Source of the DNA: Rhizobium sp. G21
Lineage (GTDB): Bacteria > Pseudomonadota > Alphaproteobacteria > Rhizobiales > Rhizobiaceae
Reading direction: 5' to 3'
Assembly (NCBI RefSeq): GCF_014158035.1
Contig: NZ_JACFXW010000001.1
Coordinates: 2,892,001-2,956,000, forward strand
Length of the DNA: 64,000 nt
Below, piece after piece: positions 25,549 through 32,025 of the stretch. The notes beneath the pieces were generated by a model. It did not search any database and had not been told where the DNA came from. It saw only the letters and a program-made list of their open reading frames with translations. Numbering within the stretch: position 1 is the first letter of the stretch; the number at the start of each line of letters is the position of its first letter. Made by a program: the position numbers and the translations under genes.

Positions 25549-26362
25549 ATGGCATCGCTCAGCAACGCTTTTTCCAATCTGTCCTCGACGCCGCGCATGC
25601 CGGCGCTGTTCGTCGGGCACGGCAGCCCGATGAATGCGATCCTCGACAATGACTACAGCCGCAGCTGGCGCAAGATCGGCGAGAGCCTGCCGACGCCGAA
25701 AGCCATTCTCTGCGTGTCCGCCCACTGGATGACGCGGGGGACGACGCTGGTGCATATCGGCCGCAATCCCAAGACCATCCACGATTTCGGCGGTTTTCCG
25801 CCGGAACTGTTCGCGCAGCAATACAATGCTCCGGGCGCGCCGGATTTCGCTCAAGCGACGATCGACCTCCTGCAGGAAAGCCATGCGGAAGGCGACGATC
25901 GCTGGGGGCTCGATCACGGCGCCTGGTCGGTGCTGATCCAGATGTTCCCGAAGGCGGATATCCCGGTCTTCCAGCTGTCGCTCGATCTTTCGAAGGGGCT
26001 GGAGGACCATTTCAAGCAAGCTCGCCTCCGAACTGCGGGCCCTGCGCGAGAAAGGTGTCTTGATCATCGGCAGCGGCAACATCGTCCACAATCTCCGGGC
26101 GCTGAACTTCGATGGCCAGGTGTTCGACTGGGCGGTGGAGTTCGACCGCTATATGGCCGACGCCATCGAGACGCGCGACATCGGCAGGGTGTTGAACGCG
26201 GGGTCGATAGGCCGGGCGGCGGCGCTCGCGCATCCCACCGTCGAGCATTTCCTGCCGATCCTCTATCCGCTGGCGGTGATGGACAAGGCGGACGATCTGG
26301 CCTTCTTCAACGACACGATCGATCTCGGCTCGATCTCGATGCGGAGTTTCGTGCTCTCCTGA
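25549..26362 (+). CDS. ygiD: LigB/YgiD-type extradiol dioxygenase (4-bp duplication frameshift)
   Basis: Corrected length is about 269 residues. It has the class III extradiol dioxygenase pattern of 4,5-DOPA dioxygenase: FVGHGSPMNAI (metal His), CVSAHWMTRG, IHDFGGFPPELF, GLDHGAWSVLI, then, after the shift, IIGSGNIVHNLRALNF and HPTVEHFLPILYPLAV. Such enzymes use non-haem iron or zinc to open catechol-type rings. The frame breaks after DHFK at a tandem AAGCAAGC (26014-26021). Removing one AAGC unit restores LASELRALREKGVLII. A 4-bp duplication is a typical real slippage mutation, unlike the single-base homopolymer indels elsewhere, so this gene may be truly disrupted. Its stop abuts the convergent DUF1810 stop. 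Confidence 0.85.
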
Positions 26363-26815
26363 TCAGGCGTTGGCCTCGGGCGTCCAATCGAGGAGCGCGA
26401 GCGTCCTGTCGTCGCGCTGGCCGCCGCACAACTCTGCGAGCGCGCGGGAGAAGAGCGAACCACTGTCGCCTGCAGCCAACTCGAACAGCGTCATGGAAGA
26501 TCGGAATTTCATGTCGTCCGGCGCGCCGAAAATCTCGTGGAGGCTCTTGTCCGAATGGGCAAGCGTCGCCTTGGTCGCCTCGATCAGCCGCGGTCCGAGC
26601 ATGGGATGGCGGAGATAGGCCTTGGCTTCTTCCACCGAGACGAGGGCATAGAGCTGTGCAGTCGGCGACATGCCCAAACCTGCGAGCTGGGGGAAGACGA
26701 ACCACATCCAGTGACTCTGCTTCCGCCCGGCCCGCAACTCATCGAGGGCGCGGGGCCAACTCGACGACTGCGCCTCGACGAAACGATCGAGATGGAAACT
26801 GAGATTGTCCGACAT
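26363..26815 (-). CDS. DUF1810 family protein
   Basis: A 150-residue protein matching DUF1810: N-terminal FHLDRFVEAQSSSWPRALDE, the signature QSHWMWFVFPQLAGLGMSPT, then YLRHPMLGPRLIEATKATL and FGAPDDMKFRSSMTLFELA. The family is a calpastatin-like domain of unknown role. Length is normal. It ends convergently against the dioxygenase gene with no spacer. About 180 bp without recognisable features separates its start from the next gene. Confidence 0.9.
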   Translation of the reverse strand: MSDNLSFHLDRFVEAQSSSWPRALDELRAGRKQSHWMWFVFPQLAGLGMSPTAQLYALVSVEEAKAYLRHPMLGPRLIEATKATLAHSDKSLHEIFGAPDDMKFRSSMTLFELAAGDSGSLFSRALAELCGGQRDDRTLALLDWTPEANA

Positions 26816-27000
26816 CGTCCGGCTCCGCAGGATGTGGCGATCCGTTCAGGTCGCGGAGGGAAAACGGGCAAGGCGCGGCAAAGTTTCCCCAAAGCGCGAG
26901 CGCCGTAAATTTAAGGCGAGTTTGTTAAGCGTTCCGAAACGTCGCCACCTTATCGTCCGGTAACCATTCCTGTTTTGCGTATTGGCCCGGAGTATTGCGT

Positions 27001-28688
27001 GTGAAGATCGGCCTGCCAAAGATCCGCTTCTCTAAGAAGCTGGCGATCATATCCGCTGGCATGCTGGCGCTTCTGGGCGGCACCGGGGCCGCCGCGCTCT
27101 ATGTCGGCAAGGACGAAATTCTCGGGCCGCCGAAGCCCAACACCACCGGCGGCGAATGCCAGACGATCCAGACCATGGTGCTGAAGACTCCGGGCAAGCG
27201 GCTGTGGATGCGCAAATATGTGAAGATGGCCTCCGCCGACGCCGACATGCGCATCAAGACCGCGCTGCGCGTGGCGGGGCTGCTCGCCAAGACCAACAAG
27301 GTGGACTTGATCCAGGTGTCGATCCTCGACGATCGCGGGCCCGACAAGCGCGCCTTCATGCGCGGCCGCGCCATCGGCGCCGAGGTGGTGATCGCGCTCG
27401 AGCCGCGTTACGTGCCCGAGATGAAGCAGCCGTTCATCGCGCGCTATTATGACGGCCTGCCGGCCGAAGACGGACGCTTCTATGGCGAGCGGGTCGATCT
27501 CGACGCCGAGGAAGTGAAGATCTTCATGGCGGCGATGAAGGACGAACCGGACAAGAAGGATTGCGCCGACATTCCGAAGCCGGAACCGGCGGAAGGCGAA
27601 AAGCCGGCGCATGGGGCCGCCAAGCCCGAGCATGGCGCGCCGACGGTGTCGGAAGGTCATGCCGCGCCCGCCGCCGAAGGCCACGGCGAAGCGCCGGCCG
27701 AGGGCCACGGCGAAAAGACCGCAGAGGGCCATGGCGAAACGCCGGCCGGCGGCGAGGACGTGAAAGCCGAAAGCCATGGCGAAGCGCCCGTCGCGGAGCC
27801 GTCGATGATGGATTCGGTGCTGGGCATGGTCGGTCTGGGCGGCGGCGAGGACAAGCCCGCCGAGGGGCATGACGCGTCCCAGAAATCCGAGGACCATTCG
27901 GCTCCGGCCGAAGAAGGACATGCCGCGCCCGCCGCCGAAGGCCATGGCGAGGAAAAGCCTGTCGCCGAAGGCCATGGCGAAACGCCAGCCAGTGGCGAGG
28001 AAGCCAAGTCAGAGGTCATGGTGAAGCGCCTGCCCAAGAGCCGTCGATGATGGACTCTGTGATGGGCATGGTCGGCCTGGGCGGCGGCGCGGAAAAACAG
28101 GCCGAGGGCCATGACGCCTCCAAGAACACAGAGGGCGAAACCGCGCCCGGCGAGCAAGCTCATGAAACCGCCTCCGCCGCGCCGGAGCCGTCCATGATGG
28201 ATTCCATGCTGGGCATGGTGGGTCTCGACGGCGAAGAAAAACCCCCGAAAGATCATGCTCCGGCAAAGGCCGAGGGCGAACACGTTCCCGCCGAAAAGCC
28301 GTCCGACGCGGCCGAGGGCGATCACGCCGAGCCAGCCGAGGATCACGGCGCGGCCAGCGAACATGACGCCGCTGTGGATCAACCTGCTCAGGCGCATGCG
28401 GCGCCGGCGGAAGACGCCAAAGCCGGAGATCATGCCGCAGCCGAAGGTCATGACGCCGCGCCCGGCGAAGCACATGCCGCTCCAGCCGAAGACCACGCTG
28501 TGCCTGTGGAAGATCATTCTGCATCCGAGGGCCATGCCGCGCCGGTGGAGGAACATGGAGCCGCCGGCGAAGCGGACGCCGCGCCGAAGCCGGAGGAACA
28601 TGGCCAGGCGGACCCTGCCGCGCATGATGCGGCGCCTGCCGAAGACCACGCCACCGCCGAGAGCCAGCCGGCCGAAACCGCGCATTGA
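27001..28688 (+). CDS. Membrane-anchored protein with a His/Glu/Ala/Pro-rich repetitive region (1-base frameshift)
   Basis: I do not recognise the family. The N-terminus has one hydrophobic helix (LAIISAGMLALLGGTGAAAL), then a folded region of about 160 residues (TPGKRLWMRKYVKMASADAD, DLIQVSILDDRGPDKRAFM). From about residue 195 to the end it is low-complexity, with EGHGEAPA-type units rich in His. The block EPSMMDSVLGMVGLGG recurs three times (about 27.8, 28.05 and 28.2 kb). As read, the frame ends at 28050; restoring one A near 28013 continues it as SESHGEAP and so on to 28688, about 562 residues. GTG 27001 is chosen as start (GGAG 8 bases upstream). An extracytoplasmic, possibly metal-binding role is an inference from composition. 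Confidence 0.7.
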
Positions 28689-28713
28689 GCGCAGAGACCA
28701 AGACATAGAAAAA

Positions 28714-28746
28714 GACCCCGGACGGCTTCGTCGCGGGGGCTTTTGT
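28714..28746 (+). terminator. Terminator after the His-rich protein gene
   Basis: ACCCCG at 28715-28720 pairs with the CGGGG at 28734-28738 through an imperfect stem closing over GGCTTCG, followed by GCTTTTGTTT. It lies 26 bp past the stop and between convergent genes, so it may serve lysS from the other side as well. Confidence 0.6.
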
Positions 28747-28762
28747 TTCGGGCTATCCGTGC

Positions 28763-30259
28763 TCAGTCTGCCTTGTTGCGGCGGGCCGGGAAGAGGATCA
28801 CGTCGCGGATCGACGGCGCATTGGTGAGCAGCATGATCAGACGGTCGACGCCGATGCCCAGGCCGCCGGCGGGCGGCATGCCCTGGTCGATGGCGTCGAG
28901 GAACTCGTCGTCGAGCTGCTTGTCCTTCTCGCCGCGGGCATGGGCCTGCTCGAGCTGCTCAACCATGCGCTTGCGCTGCTCTTCCGGATCATTGAGTTCC
29001 GAGAAGGCGTTGCCGACTTCCCAGGCGTTGCAATAGGTCTCGAAGCGTTCGACCAGACGCGGCTCGCCCGGCACTTCCTTGGCAAACGGCGAGATGTCCT
29101 TGGGGAAATGCGTCACATGGCTCGGCTGGATCAGCGTGCCTTCGACCTTTTCCTCGAAGATGAAGGCGAGGCATTCGCCCCAGGTCCAGTCTTTCTCGAC
29201 CTCGAAACCGGCGGCCTTGGCGGCTGCGCGGGCTTCCTCATCGGTCTTGATCGACAGGAAATCGATGCCGGTGGCGTCCTTGACGGCCTCGGGCATCGGC
29301 ACGCGCTTGAACGGACCCTTGAAGGAGATCTGCTTGTCGCCGAAGGTGACTTCGGGCGTGCCGTGAATGGACACGGCCAGGCCTTCGAACAGCCGTTCGA
29401 CGAGGCCCATAATGTCCTCGTAATCGGCATAGGCCCAGTAGCATTCCATCATGGTGAATTCGGGATTGTGCCGGGTGGAGACGCCTTCATTGCGGAAGTT
29501 GCGGTTGATCTCGAACACCTTGTCGGACAGGCCCGAGACCAGCGTGCGCTTGAGGTACAGTTCCGGCGCGATGCGCAGATACATGTCCATCTTCAGCGTG
29601 TTGTGGAAGGTCTTGAACGGATCGGCGGTGGCGCCGCCATAGATGGTCTGCAGCATCGGCGTTTCGACTTCGAGAAAGCCTTCGCCTTCCATGAAGCGGC
29701 GGATGCCGGAGACGATCTTCGAGCGCTGCTGGAAACGGAGCTTGGAATCCTCATTGGTGAGGATGTCGAGATGGCGCTTGCGGTAACGCAGCTCGATATC
29801 GGCCAGACCATGATACTTCTCCGGCATCGGCAGGAGCGTCTTGGTCAGCATGGTGATTTCATGGGCGTTGATGGTCAGTTCGCCGCGCTTGGTGCGACGG
29901 ACCTGGCCCTTGACGCCGATGATGTCGCCGAGGTCGATCATCGGCAGCAGCGCGCGGGCTTCTTCCGGCGTTGTGTCCTTGTGGGAGAAGATCTGGATCT
30001 TGCCCGAGGCGTCATGGATGTCCATGAACATGCCGGAGTTGCGCGAGGAATAGACGCGGCCGGCGACCGTGACGATGTCTTCCGATTCCTGGTCCGGCTC
30101 GAGACCGGCATATTTCTCGGCGAATTCCGCATTGGTGAGCGTGCGGTGGAAATGCGCCGGATAGACGTCGCCGATGGTCTTGCGCAGTTGGTCGAGCTTC
30201 TGGCGGCGGACTTCGGTGGGGTCGGAGGAAAGCGCGGTTTCGGTCTTCTGTTCGGTCAT
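28763..30259 (-). CDS. lysS: Lysyl-tRNA synthetase, class II
   Basis: Charges tRNA-Lys with lysine. The 498-residue protein has the anticodon-binding OB domain at the N-terminus ([20 protein letters not shown], then [20 protein letters not shown]), class II motif 1 ([20 protein letters not shown]), motif 2 ([35 protein letters not shown]) and motif 3 ([20 protein letters not shown]). ATG 30259 ([12 protein letters not shown]) is used. The frame is open upstream because gltX is frameshifted into it, but that is not a real fusion. It sits downstream of gltX, with a palindromic repeat element in the spacer. Confidence 0.96.

Positions 30260-30423: not shown

Positions 30424-32025
<1,602 letters not shown>

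Follow-up and report, generated by a model that had tools for sequence, protein, structure and literature searches.

A membrane-anchored protein family of the Rhizobiaceae with a variable tail of short hydrophobic blocks and a possible link to divalent-metal uptake

The stretch analysed here (the window) comprises 64,000 nucleotides of the genome of Rhizobium sp. G21, and the gene under study lies on its forward strand, as do all of its features described below. The first readable part of the gene extends from a GTG start at 27001 to 28014, and the order along the protein is a basic N-terminal tail, a hydrophobic stretch, a folded domain and a long tail. One AlphaFold2 model places a single membrane helix at residues 12-41 (27034-27123), which is interrupted at residues 26-29 in the other AlphaFold2 model (63 sequences). 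Judging from its basic residues, the N-terminus would lie on the inner side. The alpha/beta domain outside the membrane (27148-27570, approximately residues 50-190) was delimited by the models, the alignment and a fold search and carries the motif DxxGPxxRxxxRGxAIGAxV. It leads into a linker of His, Ala, Glu, Pro and Gly (27580-27795), disordered by sequence and model and containing 24-base repeats, and then into a hydrophobic block, EPSMMDSVLGMVGLGG, recognised by sequence comparison (block 1, 27796-27843). Matches to relatives in frames 1 and 3 overlap at 28002-28014, about where the frame changes. Two further blocks, EPSMMDSVMGMVGLGG (block 2, 28038-28085) and EPSMMDSMLGMVGLDG (block 3, 28185-28232), are read in frame 3, and a His-rich C-terminal tail with His as its final residue runs to the stop codon (28233-28688). 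The membrane helix, together with a conserved Cys at either end of the outer domain, supports the placement of this product in the envelope, as proposed in a first-pass annotation of this DNA.

That annotation had also treated 27001-28688 as a single gene, a reading that does not hold: a one-base frame break near 28002-28014 divides it, frame 1 meeting a stop at 28050 and similarity resuming in frame 3 from about 28002. Two near relatives, L040 and L041, whose domains are 96% identical, are uninterrupted over 511 and 598 codons. Elsewhere in the window, gltX (30427-31926, reverse strand) shows two frame switches relative to intact relatives, which suggests indel errors in the assembly, and an extradiol dioxygenase gene that we take to be DODA-like (25549-26362, forward strand) shows one at about 26020. 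The source genome is listed at five contigs and 86% completeness. Since both of these genes are also broken, the near relatives read through and the genome has this status, an assembly error is the simplest cause of the break and the likely one, the alternative being a true mutation. The window sequence was analysed as given, with the frame left as it stands.

The first-pass annotation had recognised no family in the folded domain, and a profile search bears this out, the protein of the window reaching no curated cut-off; matches above cut-off were likewise absent for the domain in Pfam, NCBIfam, PHROGs, PADLOC and the PDB sequences. The AlphaFold2 prediction from 63 sequences has a mean pLDDT of 81, and that of the domain, linker and first block (42 sequences) a mean of 72. 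Twenty-two columns, including those of the motif above, are invariant in the 63 sequences. The best match among solved folds is PDB 4lg3 (Z 12.0, rmsd 3.2 over 122 residues; Foldseek E 6.1e-5), a Desulfovibrio piger protein titled as a DUF487 family protein, which we take, by this title, to be a member of DUF4875; when a DUF4875 protein was used as a sequence query, 4lg3 was not retrieved. Sub-threshold matches to Pfam DUF4875 (PF16175) occur in 10 of 63 members, the best at E 2.6e-5. Seven of 17 relatives scanned singly (seven of ten and none of seven), a set that does not include the member with the best E, also match, at 12.1-19.6 bits; none of the 17 attains the Pfam gathering score of 25 bits. 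The domain of the window has no DUF4875 match, and among 190 genomes of the class PF16175 exceeds its cut-off in two, neither of them the window's own. Remote kinship with DUF4875, not membership, is the likely relation. 4lg3 resembles the family of the window in the fold of the outer domain; the two DUF4875 proteins examined have no long repeat tail such as that of the window protein.

The outer domain was found in 17 of 61 near genomes and, across the Rhizobiaceae, in 82 of 297 genomes and 27 of 109 genera, with one match in each genome; the 82 include a weak match, G072 (E 6.2e-4, with an internal stop). An order-wide search, which scored up to eight candidates per genome, matched 10 of 397 genomes, nine of them in this same family and one spurious. 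The latter, G487, is the sole match outside the Rhizobiaceae and was rejected, as it runs antisense to a formate-dehydrogenase-like gene. The best 80 of 113 relatives in a genome-contig search all carry the titles of Rhizobiaceae genera or of 'Rhizobiales bacterium'. A convergent LysS gene lies near the gene in at least 70 of these 80 named loci and in the window, and GltX in at least 67 of 80 and in the window; neighbours were named with a simple gene caller, which makes the counts lower bounds. LysS adjoins the gene or is one gene removed in six of six distant genomes, in one of which (L159) the domain was missed by the gene caller and placed from the family search. The recurrence of this setting, with LysS kept in the distant genomes too, indicates that the gene is an old resident of the locus.

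A tblastn search of plasmids returned 10 records, five of which are replicons of 3.5-4.6 Mb. The one viewed among these, Sinorhizobium meliloti Ak57, has the usual chromosomal setting, and its ortholog is annotated as a hypothetical protein (UIJ94619.1). The other five are plasmids of 85-211 kb and carry a short, tail-less relative. In X9 and A. pusense the match is confined to the later part of the relative. The ortholog in S. meliloti 1021 is presumably SMc03174, judging by the gene order beside SMc03175 and by the locus numbering. SMc03175 is a nucleoside hydrolase (PMC3272708). A literature search returned nothing on the family, on its fold relatives or on SMc03174.

When the upstream regions of 80 loci and of the window (81 in all) are aligned by best match, a conserved promoter-like element emerges, TTAAnnnTTCCGAAACGTC at 26925-26943 in the window, with the general form TTAAAnnTTCCGAAACG followed at a fixed distance by TAnnnT (26925-26956 in the window, and the 80 loci). 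Positions T1, A4, T8, T9, A14 and A15 are each identical in 81 of 81 sequences. In the window the distal part reads TATCGT (26951-26956), a -10-like element whose columns fall outside the aligned part, with A at position 28 in 70 of 81 sequences and T at position 32 in 72 of 81. The exact pattern has a single match in the genome of the window, at this gene; with one mismatch allowed there are two, equal to the reversed control (two). A consensus promoter scan did not detect the element, terminator-like sites are within chance (4 against 2.4 plus or minus 1.7), and Rfam gave no match in 26000-29500. The CtrA consensus of S. meliloti is TAA-N7-TTAAC (PMC3616915), and a CtrA promoter of the form TTAA-N7-TTAA(C) was considered and rejected: the first TTAA and the N7 spacing are kept, the second half being mostly GAAA, TCAA or TAAA. 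The resemblance of the element to a CtrA box is thus limited to one half. No SMc031 tag occurs in the main text of PMC4433202.

The tail is rich in Ala, Glu, Gly, Pro and His, with 12 His in the 144 residues of 27580-28011 and 19 in the 213 residues of 28047-28688. One relative containing N (L107) was dropped from the tail counts, leaving 79, of which 78 are complete, L042 being cut. Among the 78, His makes up 1.6-13.2% of the tail, and the terminal residue is His in 70. The first-pass annotation had taken this His density as a sign of metal or pH sensing, and the blocks as short amphipathic or membrane-touching helices. The 31 His across the two tail pieces and the presence of metal importers near the gene in some relatives are in keeping with such a sensor; profile searches found no signalling domain, however, tail His is not universal and the helical moments given below are weak, so that we regard this reading as very unlikely. 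In one distant genus, three members (L017, L133 and L134) keep their blocks in a post-domain tail devoid of His, the fourth (L132) has three His and keeps its blocks, and elsewhere L137 keeps one block in a tail without His. The persistence of blocks in relatives without tail His means that block and His are separable. An involvement of metal in general is indirectly supported by the neighbouring sitABCD and Nramp genes (below), though not by the His on their own. Identity within the linkers of 17 hand-picked close pairs is 178 of 201 for His against 1817 of 2268 for other residues, conservation being higher for His in 11 pairs and lower in six.

The four members of the distant genus (L017, L132, L133 and L134) also carry basic repeats of LFGFLKRKKK type ahead of the membrane helix, which would be the cytoplasmic side if the orientation holds, and acidic blocks of MVGLG type after it. 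Similar short hydrophobic motifs of opposite charge would then stand on either side of the membrane in this genus.

Like the His-rich loops of metal-binding periplasmic proteins such as ZnuA, the tail of the window protein is flexible, acidic and dense in His, and lies outside the membrane. Unlike those loops, it is anchored and long and bears hydrophobic blocks, and some members of the family have no tail His.

The block itself is 16 residues long. The first-pass annotation had described a hydrophobic block occurring three times, and all three are present, the first copy (27796-27843) exactly as it was written there and the other two with one and two changes. When the residues of each tail piece were shuffled 10000 times, the densest hydrophobic 12-mer (7 of 12 residues) was reached once for one piece and nine times for the other, and three near-copies within a tail rich in His, Ala, Glu and Pro are well beyond shuffled expectation. 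Blocks 1 and 2 sit within a longer repeated stretch (174 bases, 75% identical, spacing 242); the same spacing is 261 bases in the intact L041, and blocks 2 and 3 of the window are separated by 147 bases. A degenerate DNA pattern, written in the form of the window's own genus and not matching the diverged blocks of other genera, had seven matches in 41 genomes, all of them within this gene and in three genomes, against none for the reversed pattern. Twenty-six hand-picked copies conform to G-Phi-Phi-small/D-S-Phi-x-G/A/S-M-V/I, and the block is conserved from the genus of the window (MMDSVLGMVGLGG) out to distant genera, as in L042 (FLDSVLGMIGLGG) and L133 (MIDNVLAFVGLGG and FFDGLLQMVGLGSDE).

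Comparison of near relatives reveals that block number varies, with three in the window, three in L041 and two in L040. Under a rule of five big hydrophobic residues in 12, which also scores some other hydrophobic stretches (for example one each in L090, L094, L101 and L102), 34 of 79 relatives have no block, 20 have one, 20 have two and five have three. Drift of low-complexity sequence and repeat slippage behind a useful domain, leaving a tail of no selected function, could account for a tail length of 20 to 399 residues among the 78 complete relatives and for the 24-base repeats of the linker. We consider this quite improbable, as the blocks remain recognisable across the family, the codons of the window's copies differ mostly at silent sites (synonymous against non-synonymous differences of 3 to 1, 4 to 2 and 6 to 3 between copies) and, on a quick tree (63 rows, of which 61 were labelled), just two changes are needed to account for the absence of blocks.

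Structure prediction places a helix in the block at residues 269-276, at a pLDDT of about 59, with the linker below 50, in support of the earlier description of a short helix between disordered linkers. The further description of the block as amphipathic is weakened, as helical moments seldom exceed those of shuffles: 1 of 26 hand-picked block sequences has p<0.05, the mean profile was equalled by 1213 of 20000 shuffles, and on another scale 2 of 10 sequences have p<0.05. None of the window's own three copies has a hydrophobic moment significantly above shuffles. Strong amphipathicity was rejected on these comparisons, and the block is not convincingly amphipathic. Amphipathic membrane-targeting helices share with it a short predicted helix flanked by disorder and a hydrophobic side, here G-Phi-Phi-x-S-Phi; the block differs from them in that its other face is Gly, Ser, Ala and Asp, not strongly charged, and in its moments.

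These properties would also suit an envelope scaffold, with the blocks acting as hydrophobic stickers or as pegs that touch the membrane, the tail as a spacer, the whole spacing or clustering something at the inner membrane and His serving only as a solvent-friendly linker residue. Consistent with such a scaffold are the persistence of blocks in L017, L133, L134 and L137, the higher conservation of block than of linker positions in the 17 hand-picked close pairs (358 of 404 against 1995 of 2469 identical) and the differing unit number among the near relatives. The Sinorhizobium/Ensifer group, in which the domain is kept and the tail is short and His-poor, and the Shinella/Mycoplana group have no blocks, however, and the recurrent neighbours are metal importers. 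A pure scaffold is somewhat unlikely in itself, and nearly as likely as the role in metal uptake to which those neighbours point.

Genes for SitA and SitC/D were found in 29 of 80 named loci and for SitB in 26, SitA lying upstream on the other strand. The SitB that was checked exceeds the NCBIfam cut-off for a manganese/iron importer, and the SitA and SitC/D that were checked exceed none. By genome, at least 28 of 82, spread over 12 of 27 genera, have SitA on the opposite strand no more than 2 kb away; among the matches listed, 54 of 82 have no adjacent sit, the window's own genome included, in which some 620 kb separate the gene from the best sitA match. Across the Rhizobiaceae, SitA-like genes are common (208 of 297 genomes). 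Beyond gltX, 63 of 80 loci have a gene of the TerC family, sub-threshold in a profile check, which we take to be a class of Mn exporter. The protein itself matches no transporter family. Tail His has a median of 9.4% at sit loci (n=29) against 5.9% at the others (n=49; raw p 3e-6), a difference that comes down to three independent pairs on the tree and is then no longer significant.

An inverted-repeat box of TTGCAA type, TTGCAAATCATTCGCAA, lies between sitA and the gene in 29 of 29 sit loci (for example L044, 7771-8000) and in none of 50 loci without sit, in a search on either strand with up to three mismatches. We assume it to be a Mur box. Its absence from the window and from all 50 loci without sit led us to reject it as the driver of this gene; it may serve sitA. 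With the box confined to sit loci, the promoter of the gene itself bears no sign of metal control.

In four of the five smaller plasmids an Nramp importer is the next gene, or the next but one, to the short relative. These four Rhizobiaceae plasmids (L148, L149, L151 and L154) have in common part of an island, which holds the short relative and the importer throughout, along with varying sets of genes for a copper ATPase, a PCu(A)C chaperone, a cell wall hydrolase, DUF882, an L,D-transpeptidase, a transglutaminase-like peptidase, lspA and lnt. The gene table, which is incomplete, shows no Nramp gene in the relevant stretch of the fifth plasmid, where insertion sequences occur. The presence of copper and cell-wall genes means that the islands do not single out Mn. 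The hydrolase, DUF882, transpeptidase and peptidase genes would also suit a regulator of cell-wall enzymes, its outer domain binding a periplasmic hydrolase or transpeptidase in the manner of an immunity protein or inhibitor. The second fold match of the domain is indeed an immunity protein (9jdi_C, of a type VI secretion system; Z 7.6), well under 4lg3, although a Z below 8 may reflect merely a common arrangement; moreover, no cell-wall gene occurs among those recurrent chromosomal neighbours that were identified, which are only a part of them. We judge such a regulator unlikely.

SitABCD and Nramp importers are thus genome neighbours of the family in two independent settings, and because two unrelated types of metal importer adjoin the same domain, divalent-metal uptake is the best single guess at its role. 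An accessory of this uptake, with the tail tethering it to the membrane or to a partner, is the reading that we tentatively prefer. In its favour are the anatomy, the conservation of the block out to distant genera, the sit adjacency, the TerC gene beyond gltX, the plasmid Nramp genes, the higher tail His at sit loci and a slightly higher conservation of linker His than of other linker residues. Against it stand the majority of genomes in which, among the matches listed, no sit gene is adjacent, the commonness of SitA-like genes, the loss of significance of the His difference on the tree, the lack of any sign of metal control at the promoter, the tails in which His is missing, the 34 of 79 relatives without a block, the limitation of the linker His advantage to 11 of 17 pairs, and the plasmids, whose islands do not single out Mn and of which the fifth shows no Nramp gene in its listed stretch.

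In the preferred reading, this Rhizobiaceae protein is anchored in the inner membrane by one helix and presents an outer alpha/beta domain and a disordered tail, whose short hydrophobic motifs are probably helical and vary in number. At this membrane the domain would assist in the import of a divalent metal, probably Mn2+. Hydrophobic contacts of the blocks with the membrane surface or with a partner may keep the tail lying along the envelope, and in His-bearing lineages the His units may hold metal ions loosely and raise the local supply. The tail would then be a variable tether, with the His units a bonus in some lineages. A more specific version, in which the membrane-anchored domain works with SitABCD and Nramp as a tethered periplasmic metal antenna, its acidic and His-containing tail pinned by the hydrophobic motif and its reach tuned by copy number, appears to us rather improbable. 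What the sequence shows is the anatomy and the family, with its conserved blocks, its promoter element at a fixed place and its neighbours; the roles given here to the domain, the blocks and the His units are inferred.

The tail provides an example of a hydrophobic motif of 12 residues that recurs within a disordered part of an envelope protein, variable in number and independent of His content, and its copies form a ready-made collection in which to ask what motifs of this kind do. Divalent-metal uptake matters for symbiosis and oxidative stress, and with the present results a conserved but unnamed family of the Rhizobiaceae, found in one copy per genome in Sinorhizobium, Shinella, Neorhizobium and others, gains a testable link to that process.
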